Shown here: positions 16,639 through 28,973 of the stretch, in pieces
How positions within the stretch are numbered: the first letter of the stretch is position 1
Layout of the letters: every line of letters starts with the position of its first letter
DNA from: Pseudanabaena sp. PCC 7367
GTDB taxonomy: Bacteria > Cyanobacteriota > Cyanobacteriia > Pseudanabaenales > Pseudanabaenaceae
Reading direction: 5' to 3'
Assembly: GCF_000317065.1 (NCBI RefSeq)
Contig: NC_019701.1
Span: 4,040,001-4,104,000, forward strand
DNA length: 64,000 nucleotides
Notes under the pieces: model-generated
What the model was told of the DNA's origin: nothing
Databases searched by the model: none
What the model saw: only the letters and a program-made list of their open reading frames with translations
Translations under genes and position numbers: made by a program

Positions 16639-19509
16639 ATGAAATCAATCGTGCGTAGAGCCGGTATTCTTGCCTTAGCTGTTTTGATTGCTGGTGGGAT
16701 GCCCTTCAGCCTTGCCACACCAAGAAACGGGGCGATCGCCATTCAGATTCAGGAACTACGGGCTCAGGCTCAGACCCCACAACCAGCCATGTTGACCGAT
16801 GGGGTGAGGAGAACGGTTTTAGAAAACGGCTTGACGGTGCTAACTAAGGAAGTGCCCACGGTGCCAGCGGTGAGTGTACATATTTGGTATCGGGTTGGTT
16901 CGCGCAATGAGCGACCTGGGATTACGGGGATTTCGCACCAGCTAGAGCATCTACTGTTTAAAGGCACCAAGGATCGGCCGATTCAGTTTGGGCGCTTGTT
17001 CAGTGCGTTGGGGAGCAGCTCCAATGCTTTCACTAGTTATGACATGACCGCCTATTTTGGCACAGTTAGTAGTAACACTAATAAGGTGGAAGCCCTGCTG
17101 ACCCTGGAGGCCGATCGGATGGTAAATACAGTGGCTGGCGCTGAAGAGCTAAACAGTGAGCGCACCGTGGTTCTGTCTGAATTGGATGGCTATGATAACA
17201 GTCCTGGCAATCGCCTGTTTAAGGCAATCATGGCGAAGGCCTTTGCGAATACTTCCTATGCCTGGCCAGTGATTGGCGATCGCGCTGATGTGGAGGGTTA
17301 TACCGCCGAACAGATCCAGAATTATTACCGCACCTATTACCGCCCCGATAACGCTACTTTGATTGTGGTGGGTAACTTTGAAACAGACGAGCTTTTGCCC
17401 AAGATCAAGGAAACCTTTGGCACGATCACGGCACCGCCACGCCCCAGAACCGCTAAGTTACCAGAAAAGCAGTCTGGCACAATAAATCAAGTTAGCAACA
17501 ATCGCGCGACAAAGACCACTAATGCTAATGTTGCGGATGGAGTGGAAGACCAGCCTGTAATCTATGCAGATAAGGTGGTTCTAGAAGAGCCAGGTAGTAT
17601 TCCGCTGTTGCGATCGGTCTATCCGACTTTGCCACCGATTACCCACCCAGATACGGCGGCGATCGATTTGCTGGCTTCGATCCTTTCTTCGGGGCGTAGC
17701 TCCAGGTTATATCAAGCCTTGGTGCAAACTGGGATTGCCAGTGGTGCGAGGGCCAGTGCCGCGACAATGATCGATCCGGGCTGGTTTTCGTTTACTGGTG
17801 CGCCGACTGACGGCAACACCCTGGAGGATATCGATCGCTTGATTTTGGCAGAGGTTAAGAAAATTCAAACTGAGCCGATCGATCCAGCGGCACTAGAGCG
17901 GGCACAGACCCAGGTTAGGTCTAGCTTTATTCTGAGCAATCGGGATATTTCTTCGCAAGCAATTCAACTGGGCTATAACCAGACGGTAGCCAAAGATTAT
18001 CGGTTTAGCGATCGCTATCTGGCTGATGTGGAAAAGGTGACGGTTGCTGATATTCAAAGGGTTGCCAATAAGTATCTCGATCCGCAAAAGCGGGTGTTGG
18101 GTTTATTTAAGCCTACGGTAATTACAGCCCAAGTCGGTAATCCCCTGGCAGCAGATGGCACAATCCAGGAAAATCGCACCCCCAGCGAACCGGTTGATCC
18201 AGCGGAGGTAGCGAAATACTTGCCGGAAGATGTGCTTAAAATCAAAGCGGCTGAGTTAAACCCAGTGTTGCCAGAGAGGGTGATTTTGCCCAATAGTTTG
18301 ACCTTACTCTTGCTGCCCGATGACAGCACCCCATCGGTGACGATCGCGGGGCAGATCCTGGCTGGAACTGGCTTCGACTCGATCGAAAAAGCTGGTTTAG
18401 GTGCGCTGACTGCTCAAAATCTACGCAATGGTACTAACACCAAAGATGCGTTGGCATTGGCGGCAGAGCTAGAAAATATTGGCGCGAGTTTGGGCTTTTC
18501 GGCGGGACGTGAACAGGTGAGTATTGGTGCGTCAATGCTGGCGGAGGATTTACCCACCGTCGTCGATCAACTGGCTGATATCTTGCAGAATGCTTCTTTC
18601 CCAGCGGATGAGTTGGAGCTAAACCGTCAACGCAACCTAATTGGCCTGAAGGCAGAACTAGATAGCCCTGGCAGTTTGGCAAGGCGGGTGTTTCAATCGG
18701 AGTTATATCCGGCAGGACATCCCTATCATGCTATGCGTACTGAGGAGAGCATTAAGGCGATCGCCCGTGAGGATTTGGTTGAGTTTTATGAAACTTACTA
18801 TCGCCCAGATACAACTACGTTGGTTTTGATGGGGGACTTTGAGGTTGAAGAAGTTAAGCAGTTAATCAGCGATAAGCTGGGCAATTGGCAGGCCAAGGGA
18901 GAACCACCTGCACTGAAATATCCCACCGTTGAAGATCCCAGTGAAATTAGTAAGCAGGAGATTAATCTAGCTGGCAAAACTCAGGCCGTGACGGTTATGG
19001 GACATCCCGCGATCGATCGCTATGACCCTCGTTATTATACGGCGCTGGTGCTAAATCAGGTTCTGGGTGGCGACACCCTTTCCAGTCGCCTGGGGACAGA
19101 AATCCGCGATCGGCAGGGGTTGACCTATGGCATTTATAGCTACTTCCAAACTGGCAAGGGCAAAGGTGCATTTGTGGTACAGATGCAAACCAGCGGTAAG
19201 GATGTGGATGCAGCGGTGGCAAGCACTTTAGCAATCATGCGGGATGTGCATCAAAATGGCATTACCCAGAAGGAACTGGATGCGGCCAAGGCCAGCTTGA
19301 TCAATAGTTTCCCAGTATCGTTGGCCAATCCTGATAGTATTGCTGGCGCGATTTTGCGCGATCAGGTGTATGGGTTTGCGATCGGTGACTTTTATGATTT
19401 CCCCCAGAAGATCGAGTCGATTACCCTGTCTGATGTTAATCAAGTGGCCGAGGAGGTTCTATTGCCGGATCAATTAGTGGTGGTGACGGTAGCACCGAAG
19501 GAGAATTAG
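16639..19509 (+). CDS. M16 family zinc protease, two-domain, exported
   Basis: This is an insulinase/pitrilysin-type metalloprotease of 956 residues. The ATG at 16639 is preferred over an in-frame TTG at 16597 because it has GGGGAAA upstream and begins a clean signal peptide (MKSIVRRAGILALAVLIAGG). The N-terminal half has the inverted zinc motif HQLEH (His100, Glu103, His104) and the downstream SERTVVLSEL block with the third ligand. The C-terminal half (from about residue 545) repeats the fold without HxxEH, as expected for the inactive partner. Location is likely periplasmic. It stands alone and its substrates are unknown. Confidence 0.93.
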   Translation: MKSIVRRAGILALAVLIAGGMPFSLATPRNGAIAIQIQELRAQAQTPQPAMLTDGVRRTVLENGLTVLTKEVPTVPAVSVHIWYRVGSRNERPGITGISHQLEHLLFKGTKDRPIQFGRLFSALGSSSNAFTSYDMTAYFGTVSSNTNKVEALLTLEADRMVNTVAGAEELNSERTVVLSELDGYDNSPGNRLFKAIMAKAFANTSYAWPVIGDRADVEGYTAEQIQNYYRTYYRPDNATLIVVGNFETDELLPKIKETFGTITAPPRPRTAKLPEKQSGTINQVSNNRATKTTNANVADGVEDQPVIYADKVVLEEPGSIPLLRSVYPTLPPITHPDTAAIDLLASILSSGRSSRLYQALVQTGIASGARASAATMIDPGWFSFTGAPTDGNTLEDIDRLILAEVKKIQTEPIDPAALERAQTQVRSSFILSNRDISSQAIQLGYNQTVAKDYRFSDRYLADVEKVTVADIQRVANKYLDPQKRVLGLFKPTVITAQVGNPLAADGTIQENRTPSEPVDPAEVAKYLPEDVLKIKAAELNPVLPERVILPNSLTLLLLPDDSTPSVTIAGQILAGTGFDSIEKAGLGALTAQNLRNGTNTKDALALAAELENIGASLGFSAGREQVSIGASMLAEDLPTVVDQLADILQNASFPADELELNRQRNLIGLKAELDSPGSLARRVFQSELYPAGHPYHAMRTEESIKAIAREDLVEFYETYYRPDTTTLVLMGDFEVEEVKQLISDKLGNWQAKGEPPALKYPTVEDPSEISKQEINLAGKTQAVTVMGHPAIDRYDPRYYTALVLNQVLGGDTLSSRLGTEIRDRQGLTYGIYSYFQTGKGKGAFVVQMQTSGKDVDAAVASTLAIMRDVHQNGITQKELDAAKASLINSFPVSLANPDSIAGAILRDQVYGFAIGDFYDFPQKIESITLSDVNQVAEEVLLPDQLVVVTVAPKEN

Positions 19510-19830
19510 GGAATTAGGTAAGTATTTAGATTTTCTAGTTTGCTTAAATCTCGCAGTAGCAAAGAGCCAGAACAGTGCTTATAACTCAGCAAAAATCCGA
19601 GCAAAAGAAAGCAAACAATCGGAGTGATTGCCGGCATAAAAACCACTTCAGCGATCGCGGAGAATCTCTCTAGATATACTTTCAACAAAGATAAGTTTTC
19701 GGCAAGCTGCTCTTGTTTTTGTGGCGATCGCCGTAGTTTGGTTGGGCTGAAATCGATCTAATGCTTGCTTATTAATGGCTCTCGATCGCATCTCTCTCGG
19801 CATTAAAACAATGTCAAAGAATAAACGTAA
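19510..19830. other. Intergenic, no convincing gene
   Basis: This spacer separates the M16 protease from a strong terminator. It contains a 25-codon frame starting ATGGCTCTCGATCGC near 19775 that ends inside the terminator hairpin. There is no other support for it. Confidence 0.35.
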
Positions 19831-19831
19831 G

Positions 19832-19860
19832 GAGGTTTGGCTATTTAGCTGACCTCTTTT
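19832..19860 (+). terminator. Rho-independent terminator without an obvious gene
   Basis: GAGGT at 19832-19836 pairs with ACCTC at 19852-19856. An inner GCT/AGC stem and an ATTT loop complete the hairpin, and TTTTG follows. It lies 320 bp after the M16 stop codon. Confidence 0.65.
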
Positions 19861-19965
19861 GTTTAGTTTGTTTATTAGATATTTCTACACAGGCAAGAAT
19901 GCTGGGCTTATCCCAAACATCGGGGGCAGGCAACCAATCCAAAAATATGATTAGCCGAATCAAAG

Positions 19966-20129
19966 TATCTTATATAGATAATGCAAGACACAGAATTAGT
20001 CTTTCAATAAGTTTATGAGTCTTGATATTAGTCTTATATCAAGATAACGAGATACGAAACAAGTCTAACAAAGATAATCCAAGACAAAAACTGAGTCTAG
20101 CAATGTTTCTATGAGGCGCATATAAGACT
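19966..20129. repeat. Phased AGWCT array A on a 32-bp lattice
   Basis: Cores related to AGTCT/AGACT begin at 19986, 19998, 20018, 20030, 20062, 20082, 20094 and 20125. Degenerate copies occur at 19966 (TATCT) and 20050 (AGATA). Spacings alternate 12 and 20 bp, so pairs recur every 32 bp (three helical turns). The fuller core is TWAGWCTWA, a near palindrome. A 44-bp stretch from 19976 also recurs, diverged, from 20072. The array lies about 170 bp before the pentapeptide gene. It is related to arrays B and C. Confidence 0.75.
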
Positions 20130-20299
20130 AATTAGAAAACGAAATATTTCGTTCTGGCGATTTGGGATTGATTGACCAGTAAACTATTAGCTGTTGCAGG
20201 GTTGACTGTGGGCGATCGAGAATTGCGGTTGCGTTCCAGTCGAAGCTACCCGGTAGTTGATAGTAGTTGGACTGATCAAGTTGTTGGCAGGAGCAGGGT

Positions 20300-21115
20300 A
20301 TGGCAAACGATGAGCAATTGGCATTGCTGCTGAAAGGGGTAGATATTTGGAATGGTTGGCGTGATGATTACCCCGATGAAGAAATTAGTTTGATGGGAGC
20401 TGATCTAAGTGGTGCAAACCTGACCCAAGCCAATTTGAACCAGGTGAGCTTATATAACGCCGATCTAAGTGGCGCAAATCTGACCCAGGCTAATTTGGTG
20501 GGAGCAAATTTGTTTAATGCCAACCTCAGTGATGCCAATTTGAATCAAGCTAATTTAGAGCGCGGCAAGCTCTATAATGCCAATTTGCAGAATGCCTCCC
20601 TGGTGGGGGCTGAGTTGCATGGCACTAATTTAACCTCGGCAAAGCTGACGGGAGCATGGATCGAGCAGTGGCAGATTAATAGCGATACTAAGCTGGATGG
20701 CATCGATTGCCAGTATGTATATGTGGGGCAAGACTCTGAGCGGCAAGGGCAGCGGATCCCGAACGATCGAGACTTTGAGCCAGGTGAATTTAGCGATCGG
20801 TTTGGGGTCAAATTTAATTTTGTGGTGCTAAGTTTTGGGGCAGATATTAATTGGCGGCTGGTAGCAAAGGCGCTAAAGAATTTGCAAGAACAACATGCTG
20901 AGCCCCAGAATCAACCGATCGGCATTCAAAGCATGGCGATCGAGAATGGCTCATTAAATATCAATTTGCAAGTTGCTGGGGAACTGGATCAAACCCATAT
21001 TGAAAAGCGGTTTTGGCAAACGTATAAGATGGCTAGTAACTCAACGAAAAGGCAACCGGCTCAGGATCTAAATGGGGCGATCGATCGGTTGGTATTGCTG
21101 GCAGAAAAGGTATAG
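20300..21115 (+). CDS. Pentapeptide-repeat protein with C-terminal globular domain
   Basis: Residues about 30-125 are pentapeptide repeats of the ADLSGANLTQANL type. A linker follows (RIPNDRDFEPGEFSDRF), then a C-terminal alpha/beta domain of about 100 residues (NFVVLSFGADINWRLVAKAL). This linker-plus-domain arrangement recurs in cyanobacterial pentapeptide proteins, where the tail resembles effector-associated modules. There is no signal peptide, so it is probably cytoplasmic. Its upstream region carries phased array A, so its expression may be under the same control as the genes near 28 kb. Function unknown. GGAG at 20289-20292 is the ribosome site. Confidence 0.88.
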   Translation: MANDEQLALLLKGVDIWNGWRDDYPDEEISLMGADLSGANLTQANLNQVSLYNADLSGANLTQANLVGANLFNANLSDANLNQANLERGKLYNANLQNASLVGAELHGTNLTSAKLTGAWIEQWQINSDTKLDGIDCQYVYVGQDSERQGQRIPNDRDFEPGEFSDRFGVKFNFVVLSFGADINWRLVAKALKNLQEQHAEPQNQPIGIQSMAIENGSLNINLQVAGELDQTHIEKRFWQTYKMASNSTKRQPAQDLNGAIDRLVLLAEKV

Positions 21116-21196
21116 AGGATAGAGACATGCCTATATTTTAGTTCTCAAGGCAAGGGGATGGAAATAACCATTATCATCCCCTAAGTTATTCTTGAT

Positions 21197-21496
21197 TTAT
21201 GTCAGAACCAGCTTTTCTGGTAAAGGTAATTCTTGTGGGCAAGCCAATGCGCCGATCTGCGAGATAATTCGTAATTCATGCGGATAACGGGGATGTGGAT
21301 CGTTTTTTAACCAGATCGGCGGAACCATCGTAATATCATAGGAAGCGATCCTATGTCTAATCCCTGGCTGTGACCTCAACTCCACAACTATTCCTGGCAA
21401 ATATTCAAACACCTCATCCCAATCAGTTGCCAGTTCAAATTGGGTTCTCAGATCCTCAGTCAGATTCATTGTCCCAAGCCAATCAAATTTACACAT
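21197..21496 (-). CDS. Small conserved-looking hypothetical protein
   Basis: The 99-residue soluble protein is not recognised. It contains Trp, Pro and His residues spread through the chain (DWDEVFEYLPGIVVEL, PPIWLKNDPHPRYP), which looks like a folded domain rather than a chance frame. Its codon use, with ordinary GATCG sites, resembles neighbouring genes. Met10 (21469) is an alternative start. No operon partner. Function unknown. Confidence 0.55.
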   Translation of the reverse strand: MCKFDWLGTMNLTEDLRTQFELATDWDEVFEYLPGIVVELRSQPGIRHRIASYDITMVPPIWLKNDPHPRYPHELRIISQIGALACPQELPLPEKLVLT

Positions 21497-21727
21497 GTTG
21501 TTACGATTCGGATAGCTATTCCTATGGCATTTGCACTTAATTCCTCTACTTAAAATACCTCACAAAACTCGAAGCATGAAAATAATCAGCAAGCTAATCC
21601 CAGTTAAATAGCCACAAACCAGGGAATAACAAAATAATAAGTTGCCATGTTTCTGTATCTATTTTCACAAAAATACTGGATAGTTGCTTGATTATCTCCC
21701 ATATATTTACAAACCTTGATTATTCGA

Positions 21728-21754
21728 GCCAATGAAGCCAATGAAGCCAATAAT
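21728..21754. repeat. 9-bp tandem repeat, three copies
   Basis: GCCAATGAA is repeated at 21728 and 21737, followed by GCCAATAAT at 21746. It is intergenic, downstream of the FRP gene. This looks like replication slippage. Confidence 0.6.
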
Positions 21755-21782
21755 TGGGCTGATGATCGCCTACCAGAGCAAA

Positions 21783-21815
21783 TAAAAAAGAGGCTGCATA
21801 AAAACACAGTCCCTC
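21783..21815 (-). terminator. Terminator of the FRP gene
   Basis: On the minus strand GAGG-GA-CTG pairs with CAG-CCTC (two-base bulge) and is followed by TTTTTT. It starts about 40 bp after the FRP stop codon. Confidence 0.6.
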
Positions 21816-21856
21816 GTCCTATAAATTAAATGTAAATGTTATAGCTAAACTAGTCG

Positions 21857-22180
21857 CTACATCCTGGTTAGTGCCGAGATCTTTTTCAACTTATCCTGGC
21901 TCAAATCCTCCAGCTCGTTTAATTCAACCCAGCCTTCCTTGACCAGTTGCGAAAACACAAACACCAGATAAGCATCACGGAAATCGTATTTTCCATCGAT
22001 GTTATGGCGCTTTGCACTGAGGTAATCATGCAGTTGCCACACATCTTCTAGCTTAGCGATCAAACTCGCCTTATCCCGAATCTCCTCCACCAATGCCCCG
22101 GTTTCCCGTTCATAGGCGCGATCGAAAATTTCTTGAGCAACCTCCCGTTCTTTGGTTGTCCATTCAATATTACTCACCAC
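21857..22180 (-). CDS. frp: Fluorescence recovery protein (FRP)
   Basis: FRP binds the photoactivated orange carotenoid protein, detaches it from the phycobilisome and speeds its return to the dark form. The 107-residue protein has the family core VWQLHDYLSAKRHNIDGKYD. Trp48, His51, Asp52 and Arg58 correspond to the conserved OCP-interaction patch (Trp50, His53, Asp54 and Arg60 in the Synechocystis protein). It lies directly after ocp on the same strand, 291 bp away, with a hairpin between. The pairing with ocp in this order is the usual arrangement and argues that the OCP here is of the FRP-dependent OCP1 type. Confidence 0.93.
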   Translation of the reverse strand: MVSNIEWTTKEREVAQEIFDRAYERETGALVEEIRDKASLIAKLEDVWQLHDYLSAKRHNIDGKYDFRDAYLVFVFSQLVKEGWVELNELEDLSQDKLKKISALTRM

Positions 22181-22236
22181 ATCAACCTCTTTTTAATTTA
22201 TAAAAAATAATTGCGGATAAAAATAAACATAAAAAT

Positions 22237-22267
22237 GAGCGCTAGATCAACTTAAATTGCCGCGCTC
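22237..22267 (-). terminator. Terminator or attenuator between ocp and frp
   Basis: On the minus strand GAGCGC (22262-22267) pairs perfectly with GCGCTC (22237-22242) around a 19-base loop. ATTTTTATG follows. It lies about 205 bp after the ocp stop. It could end most ocp transcripts and leave frp to its own promoter or to read-through. Confidence 0.55.
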
Positions 22268-22471
22268 TAATATTTAATATTCGTTACCAGACATAATCTT
22301 GTAACTTTGCTCAGGACATCAACTAAAACATTTAGAGTAGAAATACATCGGCGCGATCGCCAACTTCTGGCTATCCCCAAAACATTATTAATCAATTGTC
22401 CTAAGCAATAAACATATGGTTATTATAGAGCTACATAAATCTTAACATAACTATTAACCAAACTTATGAGT

Positions 22472-23431
22472 CTAGCGAGCTAGGTTGAGCAGCTCCTTGG
22501 GTGAGGCAAGCAAGTCGATCGCCACAAAGTAAATCTTGTTATCAGGGCTGAGCAAGAAACGCCAGGCCATGTTCATACCAATGTTTGCGCTAAACCAAGG
22601 AGTTTGCACCTTACCAGTTACCTTGATTTGAGTATAGCCATCATCAGCAGGCTCAACCACACCACGCTCAGGCATTAGCTTCAAGTTCTGGCATTCTTCA
22701 CGGAAGAACTTCAAAACCGCATCCTTACCCACGATCGGCCGTTGGAATGGTGGTTGCAGTGCACCATCGGGGGCAAATAGCTCAATTAGATTGTCAAAGT
22801 CATTGGCGTTGAGAAGATTCATATAACTGATCACGGTAGGATTATCCACACCTTCGATCGAAACCTTGGTACGCTGCGACATATCTTGAGGTGGTACAAC
22901 CGGCTCAGATACTCGCTTGAAGTCACCTAACTTGTTGGGGTCATAGCCCATGCCTACCACGCTATTACGCAAGACCGTGATTTGCTGACCAGATTCAAGC
23001 CCTTGGATCGCAGCCAACACCGCTGAAGCATTTGCAGAAAGCTTGTAACCTTCAGGGATCGGTGCAACCAAACCTTGCTCCATGAATTCACCCAAGCGAT
23101 ACCAGAAACCTAACTTAATATTAGGTGACCAGACTGCATAGGTGCGACAGATCGGCGTATCGGAGCGATTAGCCAGGTCACACATTGCCTGAGACTGTTC
23201 CATTGGCGACATTGCCTTGATTTGATTCAAAGCATCTTCAGCCAAAACCATATTGGCCGCACCCGGCGCAGCGATCGTAATTGACTTACCCATCTCCAGG
23301 TAGGCAAACCAAATTAGGGCAAGTTGGTCTTCGGCGCTAAGCTGTTCAAACCTGGCGATCGTAGCGGGAACAACATCAGCAGTTAAAGTATTTGGGAAAA
23401 TTCCGCGAGCGGTATCGAGTGTAAATGGCAT
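22472..23431 (-). CDS. ocp: Orange carotenoid protein (OCP)
   Basis: OCP is a blue-light-activated carotenoid protein that quenches excess phycobilisome energy. The protein has 319 residues. The N-terminal helical domain (about 15-165) carries Tyr44, Trp41, Trp110 and Arg155. The C-terminal NTF2-like domain (about 198-315) carries Tyr203, Glu246 and Trp290. The last three match Tyr201, Glu244 and Trp288 of the well-studied Synechocystis protein, shifted by two residues in the interdomain linker (PVVPPQDMSQRTK). All residues needed for keto-carotenoid binding and the Arg-Glu salt bridge are present, so it should be functional. The frp gene follows. Confidence 0.97.
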   Translation of the reverse strand: MPFTLDTARGIFPNTLTADVVPATIARFEQLSAEDQLALIWFAYLEMGKSITIAAPGAANMVLAEDALNQIKAMSPMEQSQAMCDLANRSDTPICRTYAVWSPNIKLGFWYRLGEFMEQGLVAPIPEGYKLSANASAVLAAIQGLESGQQITVLRNSVVGMGYDPNKLGDFKRVSEPVVPPQDMSQRTKVSIEGVDNPTVISYMNLLNANDFDNLIELFAPDGALQPPFQRPIVGKDAVLKFFREECQNLKLMPERGVVEPADDGYTQIKVTGKVQTPWFSANIGMNMAWRFLLSPDNKIYFVAIDLLASPKELLNLAR

Positions 23432-23657
23432 ACTTAGTTAGATCCTTATCCTTATCCTTTACTAAAAAAAGCAAAAATGTGAGCATTTACACATTTCTGT
23501 TTGCTATTAATAACATTATGTGATCTTGTGCTGGCCGAACTCTATCTAGGGAATCGAGTCCAGATATGCCCTCAGGCTTAAGTATTTATCACCTCATCTA
23601 AGCAATCAGGGATGTTTGAGATGTTTGAGTAGGTATAAACTCACGATCGCATCTGTC

Positions 23658-25388
23658 TTACAAACTGGCCGTGATCGACAGATCCAAAAAATCCGGCGCG
23701 ATCAAATCCACCTCATCCCACAACAACTTATAGACCTGAATCGGTTTATCTTTGCCCTTCACCTTCACTGGCTCCAGCCGCTCGAATGGCAGCATCTGGT
23801 CTTGCAAGCCTAAATAGGTGGAATGGGAAACTAAAATCTCATCGGCCTTGGCCACAGCGCAAATTCGGCTGGCCACATTATTTGTATCGCCGATCGTGCC
23901 ATATTGGATTAGCTTCTCGGAACCAATATTACCCGCTGCCACCTGGCCAGTATTGAGCCCAATGTGAATTTGCAACTGCAGATCGCGCCCCTGGATCAGC
24001 CATTGCTGATTCAGTTTAAATAAAGCTAACTGCATTTCGATCGCTGCCCAAATGGCTCGAATCACGTCATCTGGCTTACGATAGGGCGCACCCCACACCG
24101 CAAACAAACCATCACCTAAATAATTCTCCAGTGTGCCTTCATAGTGAAATACAATATCCTCCACCATCACCTGGAAATACTCATTCAGCATTTCAATTAC
24201 TTCCCTGGGCGGCAATCTCGAAGAGAGTTGGGTAAAGCCACTGATATCACAAAAGAGCGCAGTAACCTCCGTTTCGATCGTCTGCAGGCCGCCTTCTTCC
24301 TGTAACTTATGGCTCACAGCTTGGGGGAAAAAGCTTTCTAATTTACTGCGCACCAATGCTTCCTGCTGCATTTTGGAATTCAATTGGAAGTTGTCGATCG
24401 CCAGTGCCGCCTGATTAGCGAGTGCGCTCAAAAACTCTAAATCCTCGTCTGCGTATGCATTGTATAAAGATAAATTATCCACATACAACACGCCAATCAC
24501 TTCATCTACAGGACGCAATGGTACACACATTGCCGCGCGGATCGAGGATTGCAAAATAGACTGCGAAGCATCAAACCGCCGATCGCTACCCGCATTAGAA
24601 GTCAATAGCGCATCACCACTCTGGCGCACAAAGTTAACAATTTTCTGGCTATAAAACCGCCGCGCCACGTCTACTTCCTCTCTTGCCCGCACCGCTTTGC
24701 TCTCTAGCAAGCCAGTAGCTTCATTGACCAATAAAATTGCCGATCGCTCCACATTCATGATCTCAAACAGCAGATCGAGAATCTTTTCCAGCAGGCTGCC
24801 CAGGTTTTCACTGCGCCCCCGCGATAGTAGTTTGCTGACTTCCAACAGAATTTGCAGTTTGTCTACTGTCCGCTGATTCTGGTCTTCATTGCGAATTTTT
24901 AATATCGAACCCTGCGCTGATCTACCCGATATATCCGCTATATCCGATCGCAACAAATCCTGCATCGCTGTCTGATGCAGAGCCGTTGGCATTTGTTTCA
25001 CCACCTGCATTTCTTCTTCTTCTTCCGGTGCAGGCTGGGCGGCAATCTCCTGTAGCTCTCGATCGAAATTTTCCTGAGCGATTGCTTCTGCGGTCGATCG
25101 CACAAACTTGAGCGGCAGATTTCCCACCTGTACAATATCGCCATCTTGAAGTTGAGATCGCTGATCAATTTGCTGGCCATTCACAAAGGTATGATTCCGG
25201 CTACCTAGATCGATAATAAATACTTGCCCCGGCTCCACAATTACTTCCGCATGCTGGCGCGATACACTTTTGGTGTGGTCTTCCAAAATGATCTGATTTT
25301 TACTACCACGACCAATGGTATTTGAGCCGATCGCTAGCTCAAACACGGTTTCCATCAATGTGTCAAAATCTTGAATCAGGTAAGGCAT
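23658..25388 (-). CDS. FHA-GAF adenylate/guanylate cyclase
   Basis: This is a soluble signalling protein of 576 residues. Domains in order: FHA (about 1-95; IGRG at 25-28, SRQHAEV, LGSRNHTFVNG), an acidic linker, GAF (about 190-345; RSAILLVNEATG, AAMCVPLRP), and a class III cyclase (about 370-555). The cyclase keeps both metal Asp (ALFCDISGFTQL and NYLGDGLFAVWG) and the transition-state Arg (NNVASRI), so it should be active. The substrate-selecting positions look like an adenylate cyclase, which I infer rather than prove. FHA domains bind phosphothreonine, so a Ser/Thr kinase may control it. No neighbour gene is linked. Confidence 0.92.
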   Translation of the reverse strand: MPYLIQDFDTLMETVFELAIGSNTIGRGSKNQIILEDHTKSVSRQHAEVIVEPGQVFIIDLGSRNHTFVNGQQIDQRSQLQDGDIVQVGNLPLKFVRSTAEAIAQENFDRELQEIAAQPAPEEEEEMQVVKQMPTALHQTAMQDLLRSDIADISGRSAQGSILKIRNEDQNQRTVDKLQILLEVSKLLSRGRSENLGSLLEKILDLLFEIMNVERSAILLVNEATGLLESKAVRAREEVDVARRFYSQKIVNFVRQSGDALLTSNAGSDRRFDASQSILQSSIRAAMCVPLRPVDEVIGVLYVDNLSLYNAYADEDLEFLSALANQAALAIDNFQLNSKMQQEALVRSKLESFFPQAVSHKLQEEGGLQTIETEVTALFCDISGFTQLSSRLPPREVIEMLNEYFQVMVEDIVFHYEGTLENYLGDGLFAVWGAPYRKPDDVIRAIWAAIEMQLALFKLNQQWLIQGRDLQLQIHIGLNTGQVAAGNIGSEKLIQYGTIGDTNNVASRICAVAKADEILVSHSTYLGLQDQMLPFERLEPVKVKGKDKPIQVYKLLWDEVDLIAPDFLDLSITASL

Positions 25389-25764
25389 GGGCTTGAATGA
25401 AGCTGACCAAATGTGATCGATATCTGTATACTTAACAATTATGCAGCTTTAGGATGTTGCCATACTAAGACCAAGGTTCTCTCTCCCTTTTATCTCGAGC
25501 AAAAAACGGCAAGCAACGCTTAAGCAGTATAGTTAATTGAGGATTCCAGCTTATTTTTGGCGATCGCTAAGGGAAATAAAATGTCTAGGCTTCCCTAACA
25601 TATGGTTTGAAATCTAAATCCCGGCAGGATGATTATTTCAACAGGATCATTCTCTAGCATCTTTTTTCCCATTTTTGTTAAGATTCTTGCAGTCTCTCAT
25701 CTTCGCTCACTAATAAAAGCTATAAATGCTTTACTGAAAGGAACTTAGCCCTGAACTTAGCCCT
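25389..25764. other. Divergent intergenic region
   Basis: This spacer separates the divergent cyclase and recombinase genes. Besides the tandem repeat at 25741-25764 there is no gene or RNA that I can recognise. Confidence 0.4.
25741..25764 (+). repeat. Perfect 12-bp tandem duplication before the recombinase start
   Basis: GAACTTAGCCCT occurs twice, at 25741-25752 and 25753-25764, immediately before the ATG at 25765. The only good Shine-Dalgarno (AAAGGAA, 25737-25743) is thereby 21 bases from the start; with one unit it would be 9. Confidence 0.85.
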
Positions 25765-26706
25765 ATGAGCAATCTTGTCAGCACCTCGATCGCCGCCGAC
25801 CCGGACATCATTGCCCAACTCCTTGCCGACAAGCGCAGCATCAACACCAAACGGGCTTACCAAAAAGACCTGAAGGATTTTTTTAACCACACCTTTGAGC
25901 AACCACCATCTCAAGAACTAATTGCTGAATTCTTGCAGCTAGAACGCTTCACCGCAATCGCCATTGTACTGAAATATAAATCCCAACTGATTACCCGTGG
26001 CCTCAAAGAAGCAACGGTCAATCGCCGCCTGTCTGCGATCAAATCCCTGGTCAACTTTGCCAATAAAATCGGCCACTGTGAATGGAACTTGAATCAAGTG
26101 CAGGGCGAGCAAGTACAGGCTTACCGCGATACTACTGGCGTAAATCTCCAGGCAATCAAAGCGATGCTGGGTATTCCCAATCAAGAGACAATTAACGGCA
26201 AGCGTGACTATGCCATTTTAAGGTTGCTGTGGGACAATGCGTTGCGCCGTAGTGAGGTCGTTCGCACTAATGTAAGCGATTTTGATATTCACTCTCGATC
26301 GCTCTTGATTCTGGGCAAAGGTCGGGGCACTCAGAAAACATCGATCAGCCTCAGTCATCCTACGATCGCTGCAATTCAAGCTTGGCTTGACACTCGAAAA
26401 GATCCCCCCGCCCATTATCCGCTGTTTATTTCCCTTGCCCCCGGTAGCTATGGCCAGCGCCTCAATAACAACTTTATTTACAAGCTGGTAGACCATGTAG
26501 CAAAAGAAGTAGGCATCCCTAAGCAAATGTCACCCCACCGGATTCGCCATTCTGCCATTACTGCCGCCCTTGATGCCACCAATGGTAATGTCCGCAAGGT
26601 TCAGAAACTCAGCCGCCACAAAAAGATCGATACCCTGATGAAGTATGACGACAATCGCCTGGATGTACAGGGTGAAATCACCGATCTGCTCTCTAATATT
26701 CTTTGA
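25765..26706 (+). CDS. Tyrosine recombinase/integrase (XerC-like)
   Basis: This is a site-specific recombinase of 313 residues. The N-terminal SAM-like core-binding domain covers about 12-110 (NTKRAYQKDLKDFF). The catalytic domain has Arg161 (NALRRSEV), Lys185 (LGKGRG), His258 and Arg261 (PHRIRHS), His285 (SRHKK) and the nucleophile Tyr294 (MKYDD). The full catalytic set is present. No phage, plasmid or excisionase genes are adjacent and no att sites were seen, so it may be a chromosomal Xer-type enzyme or a remnant of a lost element. The start region carries a tandem duplication that may weaken translation. Confidence 0.9.
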   Translation: MSNLVSTSIAADPDIIAQLLADKRSINTKRAYQKDLKDFFNHTFEQPPSQELIAEFLQLERFTAIAIVLKYKSQLITRGLKEATVNRRLSAIKSLVNFANKIGHCEWNLNQVQGEQVQAYRDTTGVNLQAIKAMLGIPNQETINGKRDYAILRLLWDNALRRSEVVRTNVSDFDIHSRSLLILGKGRGTQKTSISLSHPTIAAIQAWLDTRKDPPAHYPLFISLAPGSYGQRLNNNFIYKLVDHVAKEVGIPKQMSPHRIRHSAITAALDATNGNVRKVQKLSRHKKIDTLMKYDDNRLDVQGEITDLLSNIL

Positions 26707-26796
26707 TTGTTGGCAATGATCCAGTGATGGTATTGAAGCATCGAAGTAAGATTTTTTAGCAAATGACCTATAACGTCACAGCACATCCAGAGGTGC

Positions 26797-27687
26797 CTAC
26801 TTTCTAAGCATACTTGGATCGACAATCCATCCCTCCAGCCGATCGCAGTTTTCAGGAATACCATAATTAGGTTGACCCACTGCCCAGGCCGCTTGAATCG
26901 CACAAATCAAAGCATCCAATTGATCGCCGCTCCCATCACTCACAATCTCGGCTGCTGCTTGATCCTCGATCACCAAACTAACGCCATAAATATCTACCAA
27001 ATCTGGCGATCGTAACCGCCGCATCACCTCTTCCCTCGCCGATCGCATTGCTTCAGTTTGCTTTCTCTTATTGTCATTTTTGTAGCTGGTTCTACCTAGC
27101 CACCGCCGCACCGCCAAAGCCGGATAAGTTTCCAGGGCAACCCGCTGCTCGATCGCCTTCGTGCCAGAAATTTCAAAAGCTTGATCAACCCAATCAAAAT
27201 AAAAGGGAGGGATATATATCTGCGATCGCCACAGCCGCTTTACCCCTTCATAAAACATCTTCCCCACCGGCACTACATACAGCTTCATTGGGCTGATCGC
27301 CCCCGCCAACACATCTGCATAGCGACGGTGCTCCTTATCCCCCATTGGCTGATTTAGGCGATATTGATCCAATGTTGCTACAAACTCGTCCCGACTCATC
27401 CCGGCTACTAATTGCACATATTCCTGCCAGTTCTTGCCCCATCCCAGCGCCTCAATCAAACGGCGCGGCATTCCCATCGGGAAATCCATCCCCACCACCC
27501 ATGCTCCAGACTGTGCTAAAAAAGCTTCAAATCCTTGCCAGTCAGTATACTCATCCATCCCCAGATAGGTTAATTGAGCATTCTTTAGCTGGCAATTACT
27601 CACCACGATCGGCTTAGCAACACGAGGTGAGCTGGTGAAGTCCACCCCCAAAATGCGCAATGGATCAGAATAAAAATATTGTCTCAA
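26797..27687 (-). CDS. DUF429 family protein
   Basis: The 296-residue protein opens with LRILGVDFTSSPR, an acidic RNase-H-like first strand. It continues with WVVGMDFPMGMPRRL and ends in GSGDQLDALICAIQAAW, a pattern shared by DUF429 proteins, which are predicted to have an actin/RNase-H-like fold. Conserved Asp residues in each block could form a metal site, but no activity is known to me. Its first codons overlap the left end of phased array B, and it is divergent from the small HTH gene at 27758, so both may share control. Confidence 0.8.
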   Translation of the reverse strand: MRQYFYSDPLRILGVDFTSSPRVAKPIVVSNCQLKNAQLTYLGMDEYTDWQGFEAFLAQSGAWVVGMDFPMGMPRRLIEALGWGKNWQEYVQLVAGMSRDEFVATLDQYRLNQPMGDKEHRRYADVLAGAISPMKLYVVPVGKMFYEGVKRLWRSQIYIPPFYFDWVDQAFEISGTKAIEQRVALETYPALAVRRWLGRTSYKNDNKRKQTEAMRSAREEVMRRLRSPDLVDIYGVSLVIEDQAAAEIVSDGSGDQLDALICAIQAAWAVGQPNYGIPENCDRLEGWIVDPSMLRK

Positions 27688-27748
27688 ACCAATACTCCAA
27701 GACTACCAAATAGTCTATAATAGATATTCAGTAGACTCATCTTAGACT
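27680..27748. promoter_or_regulatory. Phased AGWCT array B, five cores
   Basis: Cores begin at 27680 (TGTCT), 27700 (AGACT), 27712 (AGTCT), 27733 (AGACT) and 27744 (AGACT). Spacings are 20, 12, 21 and 11 bp. The last core is an 11-bp odd palindrome, CTTAGACTAAG. The array covers the whole promoter of the gene at 27758 and the start codon of the DUF429 gene. Array C repeats these spacings exactly. Confidence 0.75.
27716..27721 (+). promoter_or_regulatory. -10 element for the small HTH gene
   Basis: TATAAT is a perfect -10 hexamer 36 bp before the ATG at 27758. The expected -35 position holds no consensus and is covered by array B cores, which suggests control by the bound protein. Confidence 0.55.
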
Positions 27749-27757
27749 AAGTTTTCC

Positions 27758-28105
27758 ATGTCCCCCGATCTGCAAAATTCCAATTACAGCCTCATGGATG
27801 TTGACGCGGTGCAAAAGGCCCTAGGGCGATCGCGTGCCTCTGTCTATCGCTATGCCAACACCGATCCAGACCATTTAAACCTGCCCTACAGCCCCAAAAA
27901 GCTAAACCCTGAGCTGAGGCAAGATAAAACCGATACATTGCTCTTTCACCCCACCGAAGTATCACGCTTCGCACGGGATGTTTTAAAAATCAAACAGGTT
28001 ACAATCCAGGTGCAAGAGCCGGTGGCAAATGTTACTAACCAGCTACTTCAAGATATTTTGACCGAACTGCGAACCATTCGCCAAATGATTGAACAACCAG
28101 AGTAA
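27758..28105 (+). CDS. Small helix-turn-helix DNA-binding protein
   Basis: The 115-residue protein has an N-terminal MerR/excisionase-like helix-turn-helix (SLMDVDAVQKALGRSRASVYRY, about 11-32). A probable wing and a second helical segment follow (FHPTEVSRFARDVL). The C-terminus is a helix with heptad-like Leu/Ile spacing (NQLLQDILTELRTIRQMI), fit for dimerisation. There is no effector domain. It is preceded at once by array B, so autoregulation is the simplest reading. I recall similar proteins in many cyanobacteria, without assigned function. It is convergent with the small gene at 28190. Confidence 0.8.
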   Translation: MSPDLQNSNYSLMDVDAVQKALGRSRASVYRYANTDPDHLNLPYSPKKLNPELRQDKTDTLLFHPTEVSRFARDVLKIKQVTIQVQEPVANVTNQLLQDILTELRTIRQMIEQPE

Positions 28106-28189
28106 TTGCCCATTCTCGATCGCAAAAGTTGTCATTAAAGTTGTCCTTGAGCCAAATTTCAATAGTTCAGCAAAATAACTACTAACTGG

Positions 28190-28441
28190 CTACCATTGCA
28201 AGAAAGCTGCCGCCTCGCCCTGCTCTCGCTTGATTTTGGCATCTTGCTCCATCCAAGCAATAATCTGCGATACAGTTAAATCCTCGACCTTTACTCCATG
28301 CTCCTTGGCAATATGCAGCACCACTCGCATTGAAGAAATTGTCAATCGAGTTAAAAACTTCTCCGACGATGACATCATCGCTCGATCGACCAAGGCTGAT
28401 TCTTCCTCTGACAAAAATTTACTTGAATTCTGATCTGCCAT
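28190..28441 (-). CDS. Small conserved hypothetical protein
   Basis: This is an 83-residue soluble, mostly helical protein. Its core is SEEESALVDRAMMSSSEKFLTRL, then a helix around VVLHIAKEHGVKVEDLT and an acidic/basic tail. No known domain was recognised. The Met at 28441 is chosen because GGAGG lies just upstream; an in-frame start at 28480 would add 13 hydrophobic residues. Array C lies about 120-190 bp upstream. The pairing with the HTH gene, convergent and with matching arrays, suggests a shared regulon. Confidence 0.7.
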   Translation of the reverse strand: MADQNSSKFLSEEESALVDRAMMSSSEKFLTRLTISSMRVVLHIAKEHGVKVEDLTVSQIIAWMEQDAKIKREQGEAAAFLQW

Positions 28442-28562
28442 TTTCCTCCGCATGAATGGATATATAGATATAAGGATCAAGGATCACTGACTCTACTTAA
28501 GCCGTAATATCGTCATTGCCATATTAATTGAATATGACGAGGACTGGTTTAAGAGATATATT

Positions 28563-28631
28563 TGTCTTAGATCGAGAGTAAAAGACGCGAAATAAGTCTA
28601 TTTCTGATCGATGTGAGTCCCATCTAAGACC
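28563..28631. promoter_or_regulatory. Phased AGWCT array C, five cores
   Basis: Cores begin at 28563 (TGTCT), 28583 (AGACG), 28595 (AGTCT), 28616 (AGTCC) and 28627 (AGACC). Spacings are 20, 12, 21 and 11 bp, identical to array B. The flanking sequence differs from B, so spacing and cores are what is conserved. The rest of 28442-28973 is AT-rich, with no convincing gene. Confidence 0.72.
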
Positions 28632-28973
28632 AAATCTATAAAAATCAGGTTGTAATGATACTTAATTGCCCATAAATTACTGCCTGACTGATTCTTGGCG
28701 ATCGCACCCTGGGAAATAAGATTTTCAACGATTCTCAGTTCCCAGCATGAATGACTCACTACAGCTAGTAACCGACCACGGTAATTATGATGGCTTTCGA
28801 TCGAGCAAGACAGATGTCTAGAGCGCCAGTTGACCACCAAATCCTATGTGGTGGACTACTAGTTACAAGATCTTAAAAATTTTGATTAAAGCCAAGCGAT
28901 CGCCACCTTGTCATGCTTATCTAGATCTATTAGGTTAAAAATTAAAGCAATCTTCAGCCAAGCAGGAGCGATT

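Follow-up and report, generated by a model that had tools for sequence, protein, structure and literature searches.

The chromosome of Pseudanabaena sp. PCC 7367 (4.56 Mb) carries, within the window of 64,000 nucleotides analysed here (chromosome positions 4040001–4104000; all coordinates below are those of the window), an intergenic region in which a short core sequence recurs at regular spacing, and the question raised by this locus is which protein would occupy such an array and which process it would serve. The original prediction placed the array upstream of a pentapeptide-repeat gene and suggested that it could nucleate a protein filament or provide strong cooperative control.

An AGWCT lattice beyond chance

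19966–20129, no strand: AGWCT lattice, the finding under study, 10–11 cores with alternating spacings of 20 and 12 bp
20300–21115, + strand: pentapeptide-repeat gene downstream of the lattice (Pfam Pentapeptide, 2.5e-29), not supported as its dedicated target

Direct reading of the region gives TATCT at 19966, AGACA at 19986, AGTCT at 19998, 20018 and 20030, AGATA at 20050, AGTCT at 20062, AGACA at 20082, AGTCT at 20094, AGGCG at 20114 and AGACT at 20125. The core is best written as AGWCT, which is an odd palindrome, and for this reason its orientation says little. Six of the cores are exact, two depart from AGWCT at one position and three at two, so that the eight good cores originally described are recovered while the degenerate ones number three instead of two. 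The spacings alternate between 20 and 12 bp with a period of 32 bp, as had been proposed, the final step being 11 bp and not 12. We have carried out a periodicity analysis of the 790-bp intergenic region in which 32 odd-palindrome cores and all pairs of spacings from 8 to 24 bp (289 pairs) were tried and the highest lattice score was taken. This blind maximisation returned the AGWCT core, the 20/12 spacing and a start at 19966, with a score of 42 out of 50; the 34,106 dinucleotide shuffles, treated identically, gave at most 40 (mean 33.9). This confirms that the lattice, at the position at which it had been predicted, goes beyond chance.

A specific link to the gene downstream is not supported. 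The relatives have only partial, generic pentapeptide matches, and their arrays lie next to other genes, in convergent gene ends or within a recombinase gene; upstream of the pentapeptide gene itself, no promoter-like site was found above chance. A pentapeptide-specific operator was rejected, as there is no conserved orthologue accompanied by an array, and the specific control of this gene suggested by the original prediction is not supported.

A winged-HTH protein as the likeliest binder

27758–28105, + strand: winged-HTH protein of 115 aa, candidate binder, found in 197 of the 291 cyanobacterial genomes sampled
27700–27748, no strand: AGWCT array with 12-21-11 spacing covering the HTH gene promoter (cores at 27700, 27712, 27733 and 27744)
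28583–28631, no strand: second AGWCT array with 12-21-11 spacing (cores at 28583, 28595, 28616 and 28627), upstream of the gene at 28190–28441
28190–28441, − strand: small conserved protein, function not assigned, convergent with the HTH gene, and likewise adjacent and convergent in genome G005

The twin arrays at 28 kb, to which the lattice had been likened, both read as 12-21-11 series of AGWCT, each spanning 44 bp overall, and the second core of the first array overlaps the TATAAT at 27716–27721 of the HTH gene promoter. The HTH gene has orthologues in 36 of the 38 genomes of the order and in 197 of 291 of the class, mostly as a single copy and even in genomes of about 1.7 Mb; the loci closest to that of the window are those of Pseudanabaena, and the segment RSRASVYRYANTD is nearly invariant among the orthologues. 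When all 5-mers were ranked by enrichment upstream of the orthologues in 80 cyanobacterial loci, AGACT/AGTCT came first, with 98 cores within 200 bp against 24.7 expected (Poisson P about 7e-29, a value that overstates independence because the 80 loci are related). Taken separately, the Pseudanabaena loci and the 67 loci from other cyanobacteria each show significant enrichment. Distances between cores peak at 12, 21, 42 and 52–53 bp in the HTH loci fetched by protein only, and the orthologue loci retain cores at 8/12, 20/21, 31–33 and 42 bp, in helical phase; the cores often abut a −10 box (TATAAT or TATACT). In Leptolyngbya-like genomes (L024, L028, L033), AGWCT cores at 21, 31 and 42 bp extend over 200 to 750 bp 5′ of the HTH gene.

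Given this enrichment of AGACT/AGTCT and the helical phasing of cores that frequently touch the −10 box, the HTH gene is probably autoregulated. There is in fact good evidence, drawn from the promoter sequences, that its product binds AGWCT and regulates itself, which makes it the likeliest binder of the array at 19966–20129. That some other protein occupies the array, its resemblance to the HTH promoter motif being a coincidence or shared with a second regulator, we hold to be improbable: the core is just 5 bp long and HTH binding to the array is a prediction, but an identical core in helical spacing ranks first upstream of HTH orthologues across orders.

The AlphaFold model of the HTH protein (mean pLDDT 80) comprises a winged HTH and a C-terminal helix (92–112). 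The best PDB matches obtained with Foldseek include RacA (the best, E 0.25), MerR proteins, RdfS and BldC; because all E values are above 0.2 this assignment is only suggestive, the modelled fold being nearest, weakly, to the filament- or anchor-forming RacA, BldC and RdfS. A PHROG excisionase match is likewise weak (E 0.047), and no ParB or MatP match was found in Pfam/NCBIfam. A literature search for the AGWCT motif or the protein by name returned no paper naming them. The protein, conserved widely among cyanobacteria, has as yet no family name, and a binding motif is now proposed for it from sequence. The neighbouring protein encoded at 28190–28441 belongs to no family and has a single domain in the window, most Pseudanabaena proteins having two tandem copies.

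Arrays in related genomes

25765–26706, + strand: XerC-like tyrosine recombinase with R, K, HxxR, H and Y motifs, the sole match to the query in its own genome

We have surveyed whole genomes for arrays with two pattern scans in 38 relatives, the matches being then read, and found arrays mainly near one XerC-like recombinase gene. Where arrays, either intergenic or internal to the recombinase gene, share a contig with it in Pseudanabaena genomes, they lie about 0–26 kb away; the counts of this co-location are not independent because of synteny within Pseudanabaena. The Pseudanabaena arrays share a related layout of 20-12-12(-20). In many of these genomes the intergenic arrays precede a multicopper-oxidase gene, and other intergenic arrays lie beside different genes, beside a terminator-like hairpin (L214) or between convergent 3′ ends (L227). 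No array was found in G013, G014 and G027, and the scans found no intergenic array in the two genomes where the HTH gene was not detected (G003, G004). Genome-wide, the pair patterns AGWCT-7-AGWCT and AGWCT-15/16-AGWCT gave mostly chance matches, many of them in coding sequence. Pattern matches in transposase genes of G022 and G030 and in other coding genes were also put down to chance.

The recombinase of the Pseudanabaena genomes is the orthologue of that in the window (61–65% identity). The R, K, HxxR, H/W and Y motifs of the window enzyme were located by alignment, and its score falls below the NCBIfam XerC cut-off; a survey of tyrosine recombinases assigns some cyanobacteria not to Xer but to a ‘Cyan’ subgroup of their own (PMC8138268). 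The linker of the relatives' recombinase gene is packed with AGWCT cores, about 20 per kb against a background of about 1.5. The Pseudanabaena gene (L239, L245, L250, L260, L302–L326) has an extra N-terminal partial catalytic copy and this linker, whose codons are rich in the cores. Among cyanobacterial genomes the HTH gene usually lies apart from that of the recombinase. The recombinase is missing from the HTH-bearing G006, G007, G034 and G035, and G005 carries no more than a remote one. As HTH-bearing genomes lack the recombinase and arrays are present without it in G005 and G006, the HTH protein would have other roles as well.

A 28-bp dif-like site beside the array

21154–21181, + strand: dif-like site GGGGATGGAAA-TAACCA-TTATCATCCCC, 28 bp, 11-6-11, arms inverted at 9 of 11 positions

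Comparison of the non-coding DNA of the relatives' recombinase and array regions with the window yielded one strongly shared element, this 28-bp site. In 17 genomes it takes the Pseudanabaena form GCTTRYGTAAA-N6-TTATCGYAAGC, with small departures in a few; the arms are conserved and the central hexamer varies (TAACCA, GAGCCA, TATCTA, TATCCA, TAGCCA). Between genera the outer arms differ yet remain inverted repeats. In the window, as in 16 Pseudanabaena genomes, the site lies 4.6–26 kb 5′ of the recombinase gene; in G019 the two are on separate contigs. Each fetched region had one copy, and sampling about 520 kb of the genome of the window and 400 kb of G022 gave no other. In five complete chromosomes its distance to dnaN, which is a proxy only for the origin, is 0.483, 0.500, 0.429, 0.405 and 0.495 of the circle; GC skew gave too weak a signal to inform the placement of origin and terminus. 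A reading of the site as a terminator was rejected: the hairpin can fold, but there is no T-run, and the unpaired inner bases are kept across genera while the centre varies. A search by general symmetry for dif-like sites in other orders and near the G005 and G006 arrays gave none that was convincing.

The array lies about 105–210 bp from the site in six genomes (G011, G017, G020, G022, G031, G033), 665 bp away in G030, and 1,025 bp away in the window, with a gene in between. Degenerate arrays at a similar distance were seen by eye in G012, G026 and G028. Seven Pseudanabaena genomes have no clear array within 330 bp of the site, some having one 1–15 kb off. In most Pseudanabaena, arm-like repeats, GCTTACGAAATT and AAATTCGTAAGC, flank the site (L284, L291, L380, L384); they are perhaps extra recombinase sites.

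A genome-wide prediction located dif in most bacterial phyla but reported none among the cyanobacteria (PMC3025954), and the authors of a later genome paper, noting that no dif is predicted in cyanobacteria, considered the role of their Xer proteins uncertain (PMC6416890). On its sequence, the 28-bp site is a candidate dif of cyanobacteria.

Possible roles of the array

The recurring neighbours of the arrays, a tyrosine recombinase and the 28-bp site, had gone unnoticed in the original prediction. The idea of a filament or cooperative array stands in part: cores in helical phase are found again at the winged-HTH promoter and in relatives, and the fold weakly recalls RacA, BldC and RdfS, while the link to the pentapeptide gene does not hold. 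The reading we tentatively prefer, and judge to be close to evenly balanced though not beyond that, is that of a cooperative array for the winged-HTH protein, which would repress itself through AGWCT, placed in a recombination locus and shaping recombination at the dif-like site. The protein encoded at 27758–28105 would bind the short cores on one face of the helix, repress its own promoter through them and polymerise along the array, and the recombinase encoded at 25765 would act at the site at 21154, which lies some 1 kb from the array; the HTH polymer would then shape or control this recombination in the manner of Xis/RdfS-type factors or cer complexes. The lattice and its recurrence, the enrichment at HTH promoters, the site with its conserved arms and variable centre, and their co-location are computed directly; the HTH binding, the recombination of the 28-bp site by the 25765 enzyme and the action of the array on that reaction are inferred. 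The array probably serves the recombination locus as a cooperative accessory complex, and possibly also acts as a transcriptional operator.

A serious rival is that the array works as a plain cooperative operator in a regulon of the HTH protein, whose targets would be the pentapeptide gene in the window, the multicopper-oxidase and recombinase genes in Pseudanabaena and the HTH gene everywhere, the closeness to the dif-like site being inherited synteny. It is serious because arrays precede the multicopper-oxidase and HTH genes and because the HTH gene occurs without the recombinase; the cores that overlap or abut the −10 box of the HTH gene, the recurrence of the same multicopper-oxidase gene downstream of several Pseudanabaena arrays and the cores within the recombinase linker all agree with it. 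Nevertheless, the recombinase/dif neighbourhood is kept from genus to genus while the target genes change, some arrays occupy convergent 3′ ends or by a terminator-like hairpin, and promoter-like sites upstream of the pentapeptide gene do not exceed chance, so that we regard a pure regulon as a real possibility, yet a doubtful one.

A centromere or nucleoid-anchoring site, in which a RacA-like HTH filament would organise or tether a terminus-like region independently of recombination, as for MatP, RacA or parS, appears unlikely. The fold match to RacA, the position roughly opposite dnaN and the small number of regional arrays, some of them in non-promoter positions, fit such a site. Against it, the fold match is weak, the strong autoregulatory array points to a regulator, and genomes carry no more than one or two arrays each, in contrast to the dispersed matS and ram sites.

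The preferred reading, a cooperative array acting on recombination at the dif-like site, may be taken further, and here we venture only a guess, which we think somewhat improbable: the locus would be the dimer-resolution system of (some) cyanobacteria, with a single ‘Cyan’-type Xer, the first dif of the phylum and a dedicated, as yet unnamed winged-HTH protein that would control or position recombination by polymerising on AGWCT arrays. Given a candidate dif with its recombinase, and a putative accessory protein whose sites are defined, the way in which polyploid cyanobacteria resolve chromosome dimers becomes directly testable.

Relation to known systems

Compared with the Xer/dif systems (XerCD, XerA, XerS, XerH), the locus has in common a 28-bp 11-6-11 site with inverted arms and variable centre, roughly opposite the presumed origin, and a linked XerC-like recombinase with catalytic motifs. 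It differs in that the arm sequences of the window and of Pseudanabaena depart from published dif, recombination here being predicted, in the conserved extra repeats that flank the Pseudanabaena site, and in the absence of dif from the published cyanobacterial predictions. RdfS, a protein that binds its own promoter as well as attP (PMC11963761), and lambda Xis resemble the HTH protein as small winged-HTH proteins with a motif at their own promoter and near a tyrosine-recombinase site, with probable oligomerisation. Unlike them, the HTH gene is widespread in cyanobacteria, also in genomes that lack the recombinase, its consensus is short and clear, and the gene is not, as far as seen, on a mobile element with the recombinase.

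BldC of Streptomyces is also a MerR-like winged-HTH protein that acts on repeated sites of varying number, HTH binding being here predicted. Its repeats are 9-bp direct AATTxxxxC (PMC5859096), unlike the AGWCT odd palindromes at 12/20/21 bp, and the modelled HTH protein carries the C-terminal helix 92–112 after the winged HTH. In cer/psi (ArgR/PepA/ArcA), protein-bound accessory DNA of about 180 bp stands beside the Xer core site (PMC5357621), much as the putatively bound array neighbours a candidate Xer core here, but the protein family is another and the distance from array to core is not constant (0.1–1 kb). RacA of Bacillus, the nearest fold match by a weak score, has a DNA-anchoring MerR-like domain; the array lies near the presumed terminus, not the origin, and the ram site differs in sequence from AGWCT.

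Other features

No known RNA was found with Rfam within 19400–28950. No PADLOC defence model matched. Elsewhere on the chromosome of the window, a cluster of five AGWCT cores spaced 12/6/6/24 occurs near the 3′ end of a gene (G000:C2:1020071-1020123; L118, L268) and is probably unrelated. In the window, the gene of the fluorescence recovery protein (FRP) is at 21857–22180 on the − strand (Pfam 6e-39).
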